Shown in pieces: positions 4,740-30,920 of a DNA stretch of 40,918 nt (its first letter is position 1; the number at the start of each line of letters is the position of its first letter). The translations under genes and the position numbers were made by a program. The stretch lies in the NCBI GenBank assembly GCA_026986535.1, contig JALSOK010000072.1:1-40918 (forward strand), written 5' to 3'. The notes below the pieces were generated by a model that saw only the letters and a program-made list of their open reading frames with translations, was not told where the DNA came from and made no database searches. The DNA is from Caldifarciminota bacterium. Lineage in GTDB: Bacteria; Hydrothermota; Hydrothermia; LBFQ01; DSFT01.

Positions 4740-6830
4740 TTATAAACCACGCTTCCTTCTAAAATTAGGTACAACCATAATCAGGGGGACAAGGGTTCCG
4801 GCGATGAACAAAAGGAGCGAAAGGAGAAGTCCTCTGGAATCCATGTAGAATTCCACCACATGCGTACCCTTTCCAAGTTCCACACCGGAAAATGCCCAGT
4901 TGGCTCTGATTACGGGCACTTCTCTTCCATCAACCCGGGCCCTCAGAAGCCGCTGATATGTCTTCGAAAGGTAAAGGAAGCCATTGCTCCTTGCATTGCA
5001 TGTTAGAACTATCTTCTCAGCGTCGTACCTGTCGATGCGGCAGGGGTCAAAGCCGCTGGAGCTGTAGGTGGAAGAAACGGGCATCTGCACATAGGCTGTC
5101 TGCACGAAGTTCATCCTGTCGGCCATGCTGAAGAAGGTGGCGCTGTCCGCTATTTCCCTCACAGAATAAACGACATAAGCCCTGGGCAGTTCCCTCATAC
5201 GGGCAAACCCCTTGTCCGTAATGTAGTACCTGACATTCATCACTGCCAGGAGATTGAGGAAACCCTTTCTCCTCTCAAGGACATGCTGATAAAGCTGGGC
5301 ATAATGATAGGGCATCATGGGATTGTACCCTTCCGTCAGCTCCAGCCCGGTAATCATTCCAGAATTCCTCCTGAGAACCATCCCCCGGGATGAGCGGGCA
5401 TTGATGCGGAACATACCTTTGTCCATCCTGAACCTCTGCACGAGACGCATGTTGTAATAGCCGTAGAGGTCCTCCTTCCATCTCAGGTAGGGATTCCCCG
5501 CAAGATACAGGTCCACGAAGGACACCAGAGCAAGAGAATACACGAATGGGACCGAAGAAACCGCATTCCTGATAAAGGCAAAAACGAGCAGAAGGATGAG
5601 GGTCAGCAGAATAAAGAATTTGAACATTTCCCCCTCCATGGGGGGCATTCCAGAATGGGTGAGCATATAGGCAACCGCAACCATCACCATACCCATCACG
5701 CTGTAGATTACCGGACGAAACAGTCTGTCCTTTTCAGAGATAAAGGCATTCAGGCCATAAGCGGCCAGTATGGGGACGACGAATGCCACGATGTACATGG
5801 CCCTGGAGGGATTTCTGATTCCGGAGAAGAGGCCGGTCTTATAGAGGGCCACCACAAGGGGATTGGATTTCCCCAGTGCGAAGAACACGGCAACGATCAC
5901 CACCAGCCCAAAGAACCTGAAGAGGGGCTCCTTCCACCCCTTCCACAGGCCCAGAATCGCAAATAGAAGGGCCGCAAGGGAGAAATACTGGGTTATTTCG
6001 ATGTAGAAGTAGTAGGGACCCCCGGCGAATCTGGCCCCCGGCTCGAGGGCACCGTAGAACTTGGGAATCAGGAGCTGGATGAAGAACTTCGGATAAAAGG
6101 AGATCTCCAGGAGCTGGTCGAGGGTATAGGAGAGCCTCGGAGAATCCCTCACCACATCTATAAAAGCAAAATAATAGGCGGCGAAGAAGGGAACGGAACC
6201 CAGAACGAAGAAAACCAGATTCTTCAATTTCCTGAAGTAAAGATAAAAAGCCAGCCCCATAAGAAATGTGTATATGGGAATCTGGGGATGGCCCGCAAAG
6301 AGCATGAAACCGACCAGAGCTCCCGCAATCATGGAAAAGCGCCAGTCTTCTTTCTCCAGAGCCAGCATAAAAAGGGGCAGGACCCACAGGCTATCCACGG
6401 CGAAATTATGGATAAAAACGACGATGTATCCGAGCGAAAACATGTAGGTGATGGCTCCGAACAGGGCAATCTCGTCCCTGAACTTCTTCCTGAGGTACAG
6501 GAACATGAATATGCCTGCCAGGAGATAGGGGATCGCGAGCCCCATCAGAAAGGTATGGATATCGTTATTCATGAAGAGACCCATCGCATACCGCAGAATC
6601 GCAGTGGGATTCAGATTGAAAACCTGGGGATCGTGGAGGAAATGGATGGAGGAGAAGATCTTATGGTTAAAAAAGGGAATTATACCGTCTCTGAGGTTCT
6701 GGGTCATATAGTAGAAGTTGGGAAAATTCTGCTCCAGTACATCCTCGAACATGGTAGAATGTCCCGAAAGAACCGGAAAGAAGAAAATCAACCATGCCAG
6801 GAATATTATGCCCACATAAACCACTGCCAT
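4740..6830 (-). CDS. YfhO family multi-pass membrane protein
   Basis: 696 aa. The N-terminal roughly 430 residues contain about a dozen hydrophobic segments, beginning VVYVGIIFLAWLIFFFPVLSG, with short charged loops typical of GT-C-like YfhO proteins. A soluble C-terminal beta-rich domain (about 440-660) precedes a last membrane helix and a basic tail (NFRRKRGL). The motif LYLSKTYQRLLRARVDGREV near the C-terminus matches the YfhO-type end domain. In Gram-positives YfhO transfers GlcNAc or similar sugars to cell-wall polymers; the substrate here is unknown. A second homologue is at 19879-22200. No Shine-Dalgarno site is seen; TTTTTAAAC directly precedes the ATG. Confidence 0.85.
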   Translation of the reverse strand: MAVVYVGIIFLAWLIFFFPVLSGHSTMFEDVLEQNFPNFYYMTQNLRDGIIPFFNHKIFSSIHFLHDPQVFNLNPTAILRYAMGLFMNNDIHTFLMGLAIPYLLAGIFMFLYLRKKFRDEIALFGAITYMFSLGYIVVFIHNFAVDSLWVLPLFMLALEKEDWRFSMIAGALVGFMLFAGHPQIPIYTFLMGLAFYLYFRKLKNLVFFVLGSVPFFAAYYFAFIDVVRDSPRLSYTLDQLLEISFYPKFFIQLLIPKFYGALEPGARFAGGPYYFYIEITQYFSLAALLFAILGLWKGWKEPLFRFFGLVVIVAVFFALGKSNPLVVALYKTGLFSGIRNPSRAMYIVAFVVPILAAYGLNAFISEKDRLFRPVIYSVMGMVMVAVAYMLTHSGMPPMEGEMFKFFILLTLILLLVFAFIRNAVSSVPFVYSLALVSFVDLYLAGNPYLRWKEDLYGYYNMRLVQRFRMDKGMFRINARSSRGMVLRRNSGMITGLELTEGYNPMMPYHYAQLYQHVLERRKGFLNLLAVMNVRYYITDKGFARMRELPRAYVVYSVREIADSATFFSMADRMNFVQTAYVQMPVSSTYSSSGFDPCRIDRYDAEKIVLTCNARSNGFLYLSKTYQRLLRARVDGREVPVIRANWAFSGVELGKGTHVVEFYMDSRGLLLSLLLFIAGTLVPLIMVVPNFRRKRGL

Positions 6831-14700: not shown

Positions 14701-14706
14701 TAAAAT
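14701..14706 (+). promoter_or_regulatory. -10 box of the SLC13/ArsB-like permease
   Basis: TAAAAT 8 nt before the GTG start, followed by TTCCCGGA; no Shine-Dalgarno site is present. It is the same start-proximal element as upstream of uvrC, uppS, etfB and pyk. Confidence 0.55.
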
Positions 14707-14714
14707 TTCCCGGA

Positions 14715-15806
14715 GTGGACTGGATAAAGAAACTCGCTCTGAGAAACCTGACACTCACCATACTCCTTATCCTTTTCGGACTCATGCTCATCATCCATCC
14801 GGTTGCTCCCGCACACCTGTTCGGGTACATAGACCTCAAAACCATATTGAGCCTGACCGGACTCCTGATGATTACGAAAGGGTTCCAATTGAGCAATTTC
14901 TTCGAAAATCTGGCCCAATCATGGATAAAGGTAATCCAGAGCGAGAGACAGCTGGCCGCACTTCTGATTCTATTGACCTCCATTATTTCTCCCATTCTCA
15001 CCAACGATGTGGCCCTGTTCATAATGATTCCCCTGACCCTTTCCTTTCAGAGGTTCCTGAAGAACGACCTGGACAAAATCATAATATTCCAGATCCTGGC
15101 CGCCAATACCGGCTCCAGCCTCACGCCCATAGGCAATCCCCAGAATCTGTACATCTGGCACAGATGGGATATTCCATTCCTCAAATACACGGCCCATATG
15201 ATTCCGGTGTTTATCGTAACCACCGGACTGCTCCTTCTCATGACTTTTTCCTTTCCTCCCAGAAGACTTATGCTCAGAGACACCCATCCCCCCTCGACCA
15301 GCCTTCCCCTGCTCCTGATATCATCCATCCTGCTAATGCTCTTCATCGTGGCCATGGAAAAGGACTGGATACGGCAGGGAGTACTGCTCATCTTTCTCAT
15401 ATATTTGTTCGTAAAGAGGGAAGCCAACCAGAGCCGATTGGGGTATAGTGCTCATAATCTCCCTCATGTTCATCGACTTCAATATCCCTGCCGATATTCC
15501 CCCTTTACGAAACCTCCTGGAAAACCTGCCCATGAGCACCTATGGAAATGTGATACTGATATCCGCCCTGCTTTCTCAGGTTATAAGCAATGTACCCGCC
15601 ACAATAGTGCTCTCCGGTTTCACCCATAATTACAGTGCCCTATCGTGGGGGGTCAATCTGGGGGGAATGGGCTTATTCCGGCCTCCCTGGCCAACATCAT
15701 CGCCCTCCGGCTGGCAGGGGGCAGGAACCTCTGGTTCAGGTTCCACTTCTACTCCATTCCCTTCTTCCTTATCACACTCCTGCTGTTCCTTTTCCTGACC
15801 CACTAA
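14715..15806 (+). pseudogene. SLC13/ArsB-type (YbiR-like) permease disrupted by two frameshifts
   Basis: Read across three frames this is one permease of about 363 residues, the usual length for YbiR-like proteins. Frame 1 starts at GTG 14715 (VDWIKKLALRN) and contains LTNDVALFIMIPLTL and NTGSSLTPIGNPQNLYIW, typical of the ion transporter superfamily. Near 15435 one extra base moves the reading to the frame of DWGIVLIISLMFIDF and SQVISNVPATIVL. At the GGGGGG run at 15660-15665 one missing base returns it to the first frame (NGLIPASLANIIALRLAGG), ending with TAA at 15806. The errors compensate, so they may be sequencing errors rather than true decay. Confidence 0.75.
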
Positions 15807-17067: not shown

Positions 17068-17073
17068 TAAAAT
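17068..17073 (+). promoter_or_regulatory. -10 box of uvrC
   Basis: TAAAAT followed by TTTCC, 10 nt before the GTG start, with no Shine-Dalgarno site. It is just outside the transposase remnant. Confidence 0.55.
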
Positions 17074-17083
17074 TTTCCATCGG

Positions 17084-18850
17084 GTGGAGAGGAAGGAATT
17101 AAAGCGGATAGTGGAATCCATTTCGCCGAAGCCGGGAGTTTATCTATTTAAAAAAGGGGACACTGTCCTGTATGTGGGGAAGGCCCGCAACCTGAGGAAT
17201 CGACTGATGAACTATACCCAGTACTCGTCCAACAATCCCCGCATAAACGAGATGGTGGACGAGGCCGACTCCCTGGAGTATATAATCACCAGGAACGAAA
17301 AGGAAGCCCTCCTCCTCGAACTCTCTCTGGTTCACCACCACGACCCCCCCTTCAATATTCGTCTCAAGGGCAAACCCTACCCCTACATAGCCATAACGAA
17401 GGAGAAGATACCACGCATCACACTCATAAGGACCCGAAACAGCGAAAAATATCATCACTTCGGTCCATTCGTGAGTCCATCGCAGGCAAGGCATCTCGTA
17501 TCCATAGTCAGGCAGGTATTTGGCCTGAGAAACTGCGGTTTGAGACTGCCATCGAGAAAAACCCACAAACCATGCATAGAATATCACATAGGCAGGTGCT
17601 CCGCCCCATGCGCCGGGCTGATCAGCGAGGAAGACTACAGGAGGAATGTGGATATGGCCCTGCAGTTCCTCTCGGGAAAGACATCACAGGTGGAGGACTT
17701 CATTCGCAGGGAGATAGAAAGGGCCGTTTCTGAATTAAAGTTCGAAAGAGCGAAGGCCCTCAGGGATGCCCTCAGAAGTATAATGAGCTACACAGCCCGC
17801 CAGAGCGTATGGGGAAATGATGAGTACAGCAGGGATTACATCGGTGTGGCCCTCGCAGGGGACACCGTGGCCGTGAGCAGACTCCTGTGGAGGGATGGAC
17901 GTGTGGTGGGAAGGGAGAATTACATAATGGAAAAGGCCCGGCTCGAAGAACCCATGGAGCGCTTCCTCGCTGAAAATTATCTCAACGCCGGCGGCTTCAT
18001 AGATGCAGTCGTGGTGGATTTTCCCGTCGATGAGGAATTTAAAAAGCTCCTTCCGGTGAAAGTGAGGCAATACACCCCCCAGGAGTACAGATTGAGGGAT
18101 ATAGCGAGGCAGAATGCGGAAGAACATCTGAAACAGTACATGGTAAATCTCTCCCATCGGAGAGCCCACCCGGGCCTCAAAGAACTGGAGAAGCTGTTCA
18201 GGAAGGAAAAGATAGATCACATAGAGGGAATAGACATATCCCACTTTTCCGGTGAGGGAATAGTGGGTTCAGTGGTGGTATTCCTGAACGGTAAGCCTGC
18301 CAGATCCCACTACAGGCGATACCGCATAAGGGGACTTGCAGAGGGGGAGATAGACGATTACCGCTCCATAGAGGAAGTGGTTTACAGGAGATACAGACGG
18401 GTTCTGGAGGAGGGAAAGGGGCTTCCGGACCTGGTCCTGATCGATGGGGGTCTGGGGCAGTTGAGGGCCGCTCTGAAAGCGGCGGGGAAGCTCGGCATAG
18501 ATGATAGGGTTCTATTCGTGGGACTGGCAAAGCGCCTGGAGGAAATCATCCTGGAAAGCGGCGAGAAGATAATACTGCCGGGAAGTTCCTGGGCTCTGAG
18601 ACTGCTCCAGCATGTGAGGAACGAGGCGCACCGGTTCGCCCTTTCCTACCAGAAAAAGCTGAGGGAAAAGAAGATGAAAAATTCGATACTGGACACCGTG
18701 GAAGGACTGGGGGACAGGAAGAAACGGGAACTGCTCAAATACTTCGGCTCGGTAGAAAGGATTAAGGCCGCATCCATCGAAGAGCTCATGCGGGTTCCCG
18801 GAATAGGCCAGAAACTGGCCCGTAGGATAAAGGAAGTTCTCTCATCATAG
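17084..18850 (+). CDS. uvrC: excinuclease ABC subunit C
   Basis: The ORF runs back to 16781 through transposon debris; GTG at 17084 (VERKELKRIVESI) gives 588 aa, the normal UvrC length. The GIY-YIG nuclease domain comes first (KPGVYLFKKGDTVLYVGKA, NLRNRLMNYT), then a Cys-containing region (KPCIEYHIGRCSAPC), a UVR helical hairpin (VEDFIRREIERAVSELKFERAKAL), the RNase H-like domain (IEGIDISHFSGEGIVGSVVV, DLVLIDGGLGQLRAAL) and C-terminal helix-hairpin-helix motifs (SIEELMRVPGIGQKLARRI). UvrC makes both incisions in nucleotide excision repair. A TAAAAT box lies 10 nt upstream of the start, which argues against the upstream extension. Confidence 0.97.
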   Translation: MERKELKRIVESISPKPGVYLFKKGDTVLYVGKARNLRNRLMNYTQYSSNNPRINEMVDEADSLEYIITRNEKEALLLELSLVHHHDPPFNIRLKGKPYPYIAITKEKIPRITLIRTRNSEKYHHFGPFVSPSQARHLVSIVRQVFGLRNCGLRLPSRKTHKPCIEYHIGRCSAPCAGLISEEDYRRNVDMALQFLSGKTSQVEDFIRREIERAVSELKFERAKALRDALRSIMSYTARQSVWGNDEYSRDYIGVALAGDTVAVSRLLWRDGRVVGRENYIMEKARLEEPMERFLAENYLNAGGFIDAVVVDFPVDEEFKKLLPVKVRQYTPQEYRLRDIARQNAEEHLKQYMVNLSHRRAHPGLKELEKLFRKEKIDHIEGIDISHFSGEGIVGSVVVFLNGKPARSHYRRYRIRGLAEGEIDDYRSIEEVVYRRYRRVLEEGKGLPDLVLIDGGLGQLRAALKAAGKLGIDDRVLFVGLAKRLEEIILESGEKIILPGSSWALRLLQHVRNEAHRFALSYQKKLREKKMKNSILDTVEGLGDRKKRELLKYFGSVERIKAASIEELMRVPGIGQKLARRIKEVLSS

Positions 18851-19878: not shown

Positions 19879-22200
19879 TCAATCTCTTCGCCTGAGTGCC
19901 ACAGCAGAAAGAAGGGTCATAATAAAGAGTCCCGCTATGGTGTACATCATAACGGCCCTGTCGAAACCGCTGTCGTAGTAAAACTCCACAGTGTGCTCCC
20001 CCGCATCCACAGGAACCGCCATCTGTACATAATTGGCCCTCAGGACCTTCACCGGATTCCCATCCACCCGGGCCCTCCACCTGTGATGATAGTTCTGGGC
20101 CAGGACCGCATAACCCCCCTTATCCAGATTCAACCTCACCACGACCCTGTCCGTCGTGTACTCCTGGAATTTCAGCCTGTATTTCACATCTCCATTATCG
20201 AATTTCTTCCCGGGCTCCTCCTCGAGGACAACCCTTCCCCGGTACTGGAGGACATCCTTGAGGGGGTCCCCCGAAACGATATAGGAACCCGCCACATACA
20301 CCGAGGGCATAGCATTGGGGTTCTCGTATATTTCGTAAAATCCATCATCATAAACCTTCCTGTAGCCACGGGAATCCACCAGGTCGAAGAAGGCCTGGAT
20401 AATCGGCTCCTTGATATCTCTGGGGAGCTTCCTGGTGGCAATGTACCTGATGGAAAGTATATCGTTCAGATGCGGATACATGACGAGATTCTTGCTGGTT
20501 ATGGGATTGAACATAAGGGAATTTCCAGCCCCTATGAGCTGGAACAGGCGGGCAGGCTGTATTCCATGATGGCCCCCTATGGTCTCTATGTGATGGGGTA
20601 TGAAGATGTTTTCATCCGTCCTGTAGGTATAGGGATAGACCTTGTACGGGCCCCTATTCTTCTTCAGGAAAGCGAGCACACCGTCCTCACCGAATATTCT
20701 GTACTCATCCTGCACATACTGGATGAAGTTCTTATCAATCAGCCACAGATCCACAAGGGTTAAACCCAAGAGGGAATACACGAGCAATCCAGAACTTATG
20801 GACTTCCTGGAATAAGCCCAGAGCAAATACGATCCCAGACCAGAAAAAACAACTGCCATAAACACAGAGAATTTAATTCCCCCCGCATGCTGATAAAGGA
20901 CCGCCATCTTCTTCTGCGAAACGGAAAAGAGGGATGCGAGGGTGGAGGGACCGGCCACGAGCCAGAGGACCAGTAGAAGGGATGGAAGTGCGAAGAGGAG
21001 AAACCCTTTCTTCTGGAGAACCTTCCCATCCTCCAGCACAGACTTAATGGTCATGGAAGCAACGATGACAGCTGAAAAGATGGCAAGATAGAAAGCCATT
21101 GAGGGGGCGCGAAACTTCTTGTAGGCCGGGAGGATATTCCAGATGAGCTTATACAGAGGAGTGGCACCCCCCAGGGCGATTATGGAGAACAGAATAAAGG
21201 CAAAAATCAGAAAATTCCTGAGCCTTCTGCCATCCTCATCCTTTATCGCGACGAACCCCACCAGAAAGAGCAGAAATACGATTACACCCATGTATTCCGA
21301 ATTGATTTTAAAAGCATTGGGGCCCCAGTAGGCGGAGTACTGGCTCGGAACATCGAATCCGGAAAATCCCCCCACGAATGTGGAAATCCAGTCCTGCCAG
21401 CCCAGAGCCCAGGAAGTGGCGAACTTGTAGTCCACTATCTGGCCCCTCTGGGAATAGTGCTGAAGGTAATCCAGTACCATGAAGATCTGGCCGGACGATA
21501 GAAGGAAGGCGACCGCCACAGAAACCGCACCGAGCAGAGCGGCCCTGATGGCAACGGCTTTCTCACCGCCCCTGAACAGATAGTAGAGTTCGTAAAAGGC
21601 ATAGAGAACGGAAAACAGTACCAGGTAGTAAATGATCTGCGCATGAAAGACGAGAACTATGAGAAAGATGAGAAAAGTCAGAAGAATGCCATTCCTCCAG
21701 TCCGGTCTGCGAATACTCCTCCTGAGAAACATGAAATAAAGCGGAAGAAGGGCATATATGGACAGCTTTCCCAGATGACCGCTGTAAACATAACCGAAGT
21801 ATATGGGGCTCATAGAATAGGCCACGGCACCGAAGAGGGCCACCCTCCTGTCATCGACCAATTCCCTCACCAGAAGGTACATTCCGAAACCCGCGAGCAT
21901 CATGTGGACCACGGGATAATATGCAAATACCGTCTTCACGGGAAGGAAAGCCAGCAGAAGATAGAAGGGATAGAACACGATGTGCATCGTGGGGAATGTG
22001 GGAACCCCATAGAACAGATATGGATTCCAGTAGTTGATCGCCATCCTTTTGAACCCCTCTGCCACATAATGGGCGGTGTATATACCGTCCGTGATGACAT
22101 CCGTCATAACCGGCAGCTTCCCCACCAGCACCCCCACGAAGAGGATAAGGGGAAGCACGAGCACGAAGATAAGATGCCAGTCCGGATTAAAACGCCTCAT
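19879..22200 (-). CDS. YfhO family multi-pass membrane protein (second copy)
   Basis: The start MRRFNPDWHLIFVL is preferred over the track start (22227) because GGAGGC precedes it and its ATG overlaps the stop of the upstream gene (ATGA). 773 aa. The N-terminal two thirds hold about a dozen hydrophobic helices beginning LIFVLVLPLILFVGVLVG; a soluble region with HHIETIGGHHGIQPARLFQ follows, then a C-terminal domain with YAVLAQNYHHRWRARVDG, a final helix and an RRRD end. Organisation and C-terminal motif match the 696-aa homologue at 4740-6830. It is likely an envelope glycosyltransferase-like protein; the substrate is unknown. Confidence 0.87.
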   Translation of the reverse strand: MRRFNPDWHLIFVLVLPLILFVGVLVGKLPVMTDVITDGIYTAHYVAEGFKRMAINYWNPYLFYGVPTFPTMHIVFYPFYLLLAFLPVKTVFAYYPVVHMMLAGFGMYLLVRELVDDRRVALFGAVAYSMSPIYFGYVYSGHLGKLSIYALLPLYFMFLRRSIRRPDWRNGILLTFLIFLIVLVFHAQIIYYLVLFSVLYAFYELYYLFRGGEKAVAIRAALLGAVSVAVAFLLSSGQIFMVLDYLQHYSQRGQIVDYKFATSWALGWQDWISTFVGGFSGFDVPSQYSAYWGPNAFKINSEYMGVIVFLLFLVGFVAIKDEDGRRLRNFLIFAFILFSIIALGGATPLYKLIWNILPAYKKFRAPSMAFYLAIFSAVIVASMTIKSVLEDGKVLQKKGFLLFALPSLLLVLWLVAGPSTLASLFSVSQKKMAVLYQHAGGIKFSVFMAVVFSGLGSYLLWAYSRKSISSGLLVYSLLGLTLVDLWLIDKNFIQYVQDEYRIFGEDGVLAFLKKNRGPYKVYPYTYRTDENIFIPHHIETIGGHHGIQPARLFQLIGAGNSLMFNPITSKNLVMYPHLNDILSIRYIATRKLPRDIKEPIIQAFFDLVDSRGYRKVYDDGFYEIYENPNAMPSVYVAGSYIVSGDPLKDVLQYRGRVVLEEEPGKKFDNGDVKYRLKFQEYTTDRVVVRLNLDKGGYAVLAQNYHHRWRARVDGNPVKVLRANYVQMAVPVDAGEHTVEFYYDSGFDRAVMMYTIAGLFIMTLLSAVALRRRD

Positions 22201-22904
22201 GATATTGCCTCCAGAAATTTCTCCCACTTCTCATCGAGAAACTTTTCGAGCACATCCTCAGAAGGGAGGAATTTGAAATACACAATTTTTTCCCTCTCCT
22301 TTACGAGCTCCACGAAGCCATCGAAATGGCCCACATCGGAGCGTATGGCCTCGATAAGACGAACATCCCCCATTATTCGGTTTCCAAACGCAAATGAAAT
22401 CTCCCTCACCAGGTCATCCTGAGAAATGTTCTCCACGATTATCTGAGGAAAAACGGTGCTATCATCCACCAGCCCCCTAAGGGCATGGGCTGCCTGAGAG
22501 GAGTTTTTCACAAGTCTGGAGCCCTTCTCTGTACGGATGATGAAGGGATATTCGTCCGTGTACTCGAGAAAATCATAGATATCATCCAGATTGTCGAATA
22601 TTTCGGCCCTCGTCGTGGGAATGTCGTTCCTTATTAAAAACGCCTTGCTTTCTGCAGGCCTGGCAAGGGCAAAAACCTCTGTGGTGGGAACTATATGAGG
22701 CACTTCCCTCTTGTACAGTTCATTTCCATAACCATCTAAAATATAGCGGACATTGAACGAAAGGACCAGAGAATAACCACCCGACATGAATTCATCCAGC
22801 ACCTCTTCACAGGAGGAGGGTTCTATGGCCTTTATCCCCGCGGAATTCCTTTCGAAGAGCCTGTTCTGGGGAGCGCTACCGATGGCGAGAAATCTCTTCT
22901 CCAT
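22197..22904 (-). CDS. PurD-like ATP-grasp fragment protein, function unknown
   Basis: 235 aa. The order of segments recalls the first half of phosphoribosylamine-glycine ligase: LAIGSAPQNRLFER (degenerate GSGGREHAL), SLVLSFNVRYILDGYGNELY, REVPHIVPTTEVFALARPAESKAFLIRNDIPTT and YPFIIRTEKGSRLVKNSS. The catalytic C-terminal ATP-grasp domain of the roughly 420-aa enzyme is missing and the glycine-rich loops are altered, so PurD activity is unlikely. The frame is intact and the gene is coupled (ATGA) to the YfhO gene, suggesting a repurposed protein. TATAAAAT lies 8 nt before the ATG. The homology is judged by eye. Confidence 0.6.
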   Translation of the reverse strand: MEKRFLAIGSAPQNRLFERNSAGIKAIEPSSCEEVLDEFMSGGYSLVLSFNVRYILDGYGNELYKREVPHIVPTTEVFALARPAESKAFLIRNDIPTTRAEIFDNLDDIYDFLEYTDEYPFIIRTEKGSRLVKNSSQAAHALRGLVDDSTVFPQIIVENISQDDLVREISFAFGNRIMGDVRLIEAIRSDVGHFDGFVELVKEREKIVYFKFLPSEDVLEKFLDEKWEKFLEAIS

Positions 22905-22912
22905 AGGGAGAA

Positions 22913-22920
22913 ATTTTATA
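22913..22920 (-). promoter_or_regulatory. -10 box of the PurD-like/YfhO operon
   Basis: TATAAAAT on the minus strand, 8 nt before the ATG, followed by TTCTCCC, with no Shine-Dalgarno site. Confidence 0.55.
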
Positions 22921-23056: not shown

Positions 23057-23596
23057 ATGGTAAAAATGCTCATAATTCTGCTTACAGGAGGCCTGGAATT
23101 CGAAGTAGAACCTGGAAAGTATTACGCAGTGATAATCCAGACCATAGAGGATATGGACTCCATAAAATTGAGCCTGGGGAATATTTCGTGGAATCTCTTC
23201 AAATACTTCAGCTTCCACTACACATTCTTCCACACGGAAAACCTCCCCGAAGGGCAGATTGCCCATATAGACATACAGGAGGAAAGCATATCCGGAATAT
23301 TAATCGCAGAGGCGGATACGGTTATGGAGGTGAGGGCTCCGGATTCCATCGAATACATTATGAAACCCTATACCCCCATCGGAATATTCGTATTTCCATC
23401 CCCCCCCTCGCGAATCGACAGCATCACCATCTTCACAAGGGGAGGCGTAAACAGAACCATAGAACTCCGCGAGTCGGATATCGAGCAGTTTACCGTCGTA
23501 CCCGTGATAATGATTTCCGGTAGAAGGAACTTCATCCGGTTGTTTGGAAAAGGTAATTTTAAGATAATGGTGGGCAAAATCTTATTCCTTCACTAA
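23057..23596 (+). CDS. hypothetical protein (179 aa), possibly exported
   Basis: The N-terminus MVKMLIILLTGGLEFEVEPG could be a short uncleaved or weak signal segment. The rest is beta-strand rich with alternating hydrophobics (YYAVIIQTIEDMDSIKLSLG, ISGILIAEADTVMEVRAPD, SRIDSITIFTRGGVNRTIELR) and no Cys. I do not recognise a family. It is divergent from the PurD-like/YfhO operon and 219 nt upstream of the sigma-factor gene. TTTAAA 6 nt before the ATG and no Shine-Dalgarno site support this start. Confidence 0.6.
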   Translation: MVKMLIILLTGGLEFEVEPGKYYAVIIQTIEDMDSIKLSLGNISWNLFKYFSFHYTFFHTENLPEGQIAHIDIQEESISGILIAEADTVMEVRAPDSIEYIMKPYTPIGIFVFPSPPSRIDSITIFTRGGVNRTIELRESDIEQFTVVPVIMISGRRNFIRLFGKGNFKIMVGKILFLH

Positions 23597-26437: not shown

Positions 26438-26447
26438 CCCCGGGAAA

Positions 26448-26455
26448 ATTTTATA
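26448..26455 (-). promoter_or_regulatory. -10 box of pyk
   Basis: TATAAAAT on the minus strand followed by TTTCCCGGGG and the ATG. It is the longest member of the start-proximal motif set (10 nt spacing). Confidence 0.55.
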
Positions 26456-30613: not shown

Positions 30614-30920
30614 GGGAAAATTTTACAGGGAATGCCGGAACTGTTATGATTTTAGTGAAACCGGATGGTCGGTTTCATCCATTTTGCATTTGCAGAGAAA
30701 AACTATTGATTTACATAGTCTTACACACAACAAAATTGAACCCCATCCATTATAATGGACACTGTGATGATTGGGAAAGAAGAAAATGGATTTCCGGGCC
30801 GGGGAACCCGGAAGAATTAAAAAACCAATGGATAAGTTATTGGATTATATGATTCGAACCATGGATGGGGGTGGGGGCTCTTCTCATAACAGGAGGGAAC
30901 GAACCCTGCTCCCTCCAGTA
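30614..30920. other. 307-nt intergenic region between etfB and the small barrel protein gene
   Basis: It holds the etfB -10 box (30620-30625, TAAAAT on minus), the hairpin GAAACCG-GATGGT-CGGTTTC near 30655, a perfect 14-bp palindrome TCCATTATAATGGA at 30746-30759, and a CCGGG...CCCGG stem near 30800 that could terminate the upstream gene. No convincing ORF; a 17-codon plus-strand frame at 30768 has no support. Confidence 0.55.

Follow-up and report, generated by a model that had tools for sequence, protein, structure and literature searches.

A half-size protein of probable PurD origin overlaps a YfhO membrane protein gene in one genus of WOR-3 bacteria

Introduction

The membrane protein YfhO of Bacillus subtilis shares an operon with the cytosolic glycosyltransferase CsbB, and both proteins are needed for lipoteichoic acid glycosylation (PMC5836110). 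A comparable unit, in which a cytosolic-looking protein is encoded together with a YfhO membrane protein, is described here from a 40,918-nucleotide stretch of DNA (contig JALSOK010000072.1 of Caldifarciminota bacterium assembly GCA_026986535.1; hereafter the window). CsbB is an active glycosyltransferase, whereas the partner in the window is PurD-like and its host is no Firmicute. The csbB-yfhO operon is the known precedent for a cytosolic companion of YfhO, and we do not claim that the same chemistry takes place.

The second point of comparison is PurD itself, the phosphoribosylamine-glycine ligase or glycinamide ribonucleotide synthetase (TIGR00877; PF02844/PF01071/PF02843). Residues 55-160 of the half-size protein (half-PurD) are collinear with PurD 74-190. 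In contrast to PurD, which has ~420 aa, half-PurD has 235 aa and lacks both GARS_C and a recognisable catalytic half, and its two known genomes are without purF, purL, purM and purH and so offer no context of de novo purine synthesis. A further PurD relative occurs in the same bacterial family: in the sister genus, a strongly diverged second PurD-like protein (L024, 463 aa; G002:C52:3456-4745) is found beside a normal purD and scores 82.8 bits against TIGR00877. Unlike half-PurD it is full length, and it shows no specific kinship to half-PurD (hhalign probability 0.5%), for which reason it was rejected as the parent. Searches of the open-licence literature found no description of a truncated PurD that has lost catalysis, nor any account of purine auxotrophy in WOR-3. 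The parts are known; what is new is a shrunken, apparently non-catalytic PurD paired with YfhO and restricted to one genus.

Results

The half-PurD gene reads from ATG to TGA through 235 codons without interruption, and its stop codon overlaps the start of the YfhO gene (Table 1). Both the intact frame and the overlap had been claimed in an earlier sequence-only reading of this DNA, and both hold; its naming of the neighbour as YfhO is supported by a Pfam score of 45.3 bits, above the gathering cut-off of 28.5. YfhO is 85% identical to its counterpart in the sister species and 46% identical to that in the other genus of the family. A tRNA-Thr on the opposite strand and then a GTG-started uppS lie downstream of YfhO. 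Because TTAAAATTTCC precedes uppS, this gene is probably transcribed separately from half-PurD and YfhO. A second YfhO-like membrane protein is encoded at 4740-6830 (-), with 696 aa from its ATG; its similarity to the first YfhO lies in the C-terminal part (E=4.5e-11), and an NCBIfam search with it gave no match.

Table 1 Coordinates of the half-PurD/YfhO locus within the window
Feature	Coordinates	Strand	Remarks
TATAAAATTTCTC promoter-like box	22908..22920	-	Pattern match; ends 3 nt before the half-PurD ATG
Half-size PurD-like protein	22197..22904	-	Cytosolic-looking; 235 aa; homology to PurD 74-190 at residues ~55-160; residues 161-235 unassignable
Segment with demonstrated PurD homology (residues 55-160; from the last part of GARS_N into the first part of the ATP-grasp A domain)	22425..22742	-	
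YfhO-family multi-spanning membrane protein	19879..22200	-	773 aa; PF09586, E=5.6e-12
ATGA overlap of half-PurD stop and YfhO start	22197..22200	-	half-PurD TGA 22199-22197, YfhO ATG 22200-22198; translational coupling; identical in sister species
Divergent neighbour	23057..23596	+	179-aa protein; flank, probably outside the unit

The TATAAAATTTCTC box in front of half-PurD is kept in the sister species with one mismatch, while the rest of the intergenic region has diverged. Given this conserved box at 3 nt from the ATG, half-PurD and YfhO are probably carried on one leaderless or near-leaderless transcript from the predicted promoter. Five boxes of the form TAAAATTTYYC are found in the window against 0.14 expected by chance, at 14701-14711 (+), 17068-17078 (+), 22908-22918 (-), 26443-26453 (-) and 30615-30625 (-). 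All five stand 1-5 nt upstream of a plausible start (GTG at 14715 and 17084; ATG at 22904, 26437 and 30613), and the start at 17084 would be the true start of uvrC. The pattern suggests that this lineage makes leaderless transcripts from promoters that have an extended -10 element.

Homology to PurD was assessed with profiles. In the NCBIfam search purD was the sole family match of the window protein (E=8.9e-4, 18.2 bits), and the orthologue from the sister species matched the same family (TIGR00877) more strongly, at PurD positions 74-190 (E=6.4e-7, 28.5 bits), both scores being below the curated cut-off of 288 bits. Alignment of the two orthologues with 16 WOR-3 PurDs by hhalign gave a probability of 93% (E=2.8e-7) over residues 55-146, against at most 1.5% for 30 column shuffles and at most 0.2% for the ATP-grasp controls AccC, SucC and Ddl of the same genome. 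A search of the PDB with the single sequence returned weak PurD matches only (E 0.39). The likeness to PurD that the sequence-only reading had noted is therefore above chance. Its statement that the protein follows the order of the N-terminal and central regions of PurD stands for residues ~55-160 and is a slight overstatement elsewhere, as the sequence homology covers these ~105 residues. In a profile-profile comparison, residues 1-60 alone reached only 1.1% against PurD; aligned globally, the protein runs collinearly with PurD from residue 3 onward, which makes a PurD origin of residues 1-54 plausible. The C-terminal half of PurD was also sought within residues 161-235, which matched PurD no better than shuffles. 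The parts outside the ~105 homologous residues could be of other origin. Weak family matches to DNA_pol3_beta_3 and phrog_25854 were dropped because they were absent from the orthologue, and plasmids, phages and viral contigs yielded no closer relative of half-PurD.

Structure models were generated with AlphaFold and compared with the PDB. With the two orthologues only and no PurD in the alignment, the model had a pLDDT of 43, and its best matches by Foldseek were mostly ATP-grasp proteins at low confidence. Adding PurD N-halves brought most of residues 1-160 to a pLDDT of about 70-92; pLDDT stayed low over 163-214, a region that is unreliable in both models. The ten best PDB matches of this second model were all PurDs (E from 3.8e-9; among them 3lp8, 2yrx and 1gso), a result that is not independent, since PurDs were present in its alignment. 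In the low-confidence region the same model predicts a hairpin (E197-202/E205-212) followed by helices.

Few of the residues that define PurD are left. Over the aligned part half-PurD keeps 11 of 46 PurD-invariant residues. Three motifs have disappeared (GxGGRE, GPE and NTGGMG) and of GLAAGKG only EKG is left, in agreement with the earlier remark that the glycine-rich loops are altered, and the ATP-binding lysine K139 and the glycine loop are changed. The protein does not carry the PurD motif set (IKAxGLAAGKG, EE, QDHK, NTGGMG, EFNxRxGDPE), and no equivalent of EFNxRxGDPE and no E-x-N metal-binding motif was seen in its sequence. The catalytic C-terminal part, already described as missing, is indeed not recognisable: a Pfam search found no GARS_C (PF02843), no section of PurD corresponds in sequence to residues 161-235, and the protein stops after residue 235. 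Judged from these sequence changes, PurD activity has almost certainly been lost. Taken with the profile and fold matches, this supports the description of a degenerate PurD-like protein.

The orthologue in candidate division WOR-3 bacterium S143_66, the sister species, is encoded in the same place with the same ATGA overlap, and the proteins are 80% identical. Comparison of the pair gave pN 0.119, pS 0.663 and a dN/dS of about 0.08 (0.080; 0.085 for YfhO), values to be read as approximate because they come from a single species pair with dS near saturation. Residues 84-172 evolve most slowly, being 94% identical with a pN/pS of 0.045, a constraint like that on pyruvate kinase, and residues 184-215 are also highly conserved between the two species. 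There are no frame breaks in either gene. Half-PurD is, on this comparison, under strong purifying selection, which supports taking the intact frame as functional. Identity to the sister species is just 53-60% for three neighbours, namely the sigma factor, the anti-sigma factor and the 179-aa protein. The 179-aa protein (locus L012, 7319-7858 (-), in S143_66) belongs to no known family, is 53% conserved, and adjoins a divergent sigma-70-like factor and a zinc-finger anti-sigma-like protein.

The half-PurD and YfhO pair, which the sequence-only reading had proposed to look for in related genomes, occurs in both genomes of the genus; neither the family's second genus nor the remainder of the phylum has it. 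No half-PurD was found outside the genus among 147 WOR-3 genomes, 123 of which have purD above cut-off; the other WOR-3 lineages that lack purD have therefore kept no half protein. Full-length purD is also missing from several other WOR-3 families. In the other genus of the family purD lies away from YfhO, beside a gene that we take from its sequence to be ispG, and YfhO has no half-PurD partner, being preceded by a presumably thioesterase-like gene.

A full-length purD elsewhere in the genome had likewise been suggested as a point to check, and none was found. Profile searches, in which control genomes were positive in nearly every case, found no full-length purD, purF, purL, purM or purH in either genome of the genus; all five are present in both genomes of the family's other genus. 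With completeness at 96% and 95% and five genes jointly absent, an assembly accident is unlikely. Hypoxanthine phosphoribosyltransferase is present in the genome of the window (207.6 bits, cut-off 150). The gene content points to purine auxotrophy in both genomes (G000 and G003).

Discussion

Half-PurD is very probably derived from PurD. That it is a partner of YfhO, an idea raised in the sequence-only reading, is suggested by the translational coupling through the ATGA overlap, and on this evidence the partnership may or may not hold in about equal measure. We propose that, when the purine pathway was lost, a copy of purD shrank and was exapted, and that what it retained was the scaffold where the ATP-grasp A domain begins; either the loss or a duplication may have come first. 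Half-PurD would most likely bind the inner face of YfhO from the cytosol, perhaps along with a small ligand, for example a nucleotide or phosphosugar, and would regulate or stabilise YfhO. It would thereby occupy the gene position held in Bacillus csbB-yfhO by the cytosolic glycosyltransferase, and overlapping translation would yield matched amounts of the two proteins. With moderate confidence, we favour a non-catalytic PurD derivative that was exapted as a cytosolic partner of YfhO at about the time when purine synthesis was lost. More tentatively, a purine enzyme left redundant once its pathway was gone may have been halved, have lost catalysis and have become, within one genus, an obligate cytosolic subunit of an envelope glycosyltransferase of the YfhO type.

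The main rival to partnership with YfhO is a role in salvage or nucleotide sensing, in which a PurD-derived protein has its own function as a sensor of nucleotides or PRPP derivatives or as a scaffold for purine salvage, unrelated to YfhO, the overlap being compact packing. Short overlaps between unrelated genes are common in bacteria, the neighbour of YfhO differs in the other genus (the gene labelled thioesterase-like from its sequence), and conservation is highest in the PurD-like core (residues 84-172), as would be the case for a ligand-binding part. However, the overlap and the pair were kept though the sigma, anti-sigma and 179-aa neighbours diverged to 53-60%, and half-PurD and YfhO have the promoter-like box in common; we regard a separate function as possible, if rather doubtful. 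The box directly before the start and the ATGA coupling would also suit a cistron that serves mainly as a translated leader setting YfhO expression, yet the amino-acid sequence is conserved beyond the reading frame (pN/pS 0.045 over residues 84-172), which makes this a very improbable account.

Two further readings concern the protein itself. Half-PurD could be a compact, active ATP-grasp ligase of new specificity, its last 75 residues forming a shortened second ATP-grasp half in which a hairpin at 195-212 replaces the catalytic hairpin. The predicted hairpin and helices do resemble the end of an ATP-grasp domain, and residues 184-215 are strongly conserved across the two species, but the models are unreliable over just this region, residues 161-235 align to PurD sequence no better than shuffles do, K139 and the glycine loop are altered, and the E-x-N motif was not seen; activity of this kind is improbable. 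The truncation and the loss of purine synthesis in the genus would also fit a decaying purD pseudogene that is open by chance. Against decay stand the dN/dS of ~0.08, the unbroken frames in both species, a central part as slow-evolving as pyruvate kinase, and a pS of 0.66 that excludes a very recent split of the lineages, and we give this explanation hardly any credence.

Annotation pipelines could misread half-PurD as purD and so attribute part of a missing pathway to the organism. Understood as an exapted PurD derivative, half-PurD would be a small, clean case of an enzyme becoming a non-enzyme, coinciding with the loss of a whole pathway in an uncultured lineage, and it may bear on what, if anything, regulates the glycosyltransferases of the YfhO family from the cytosol.
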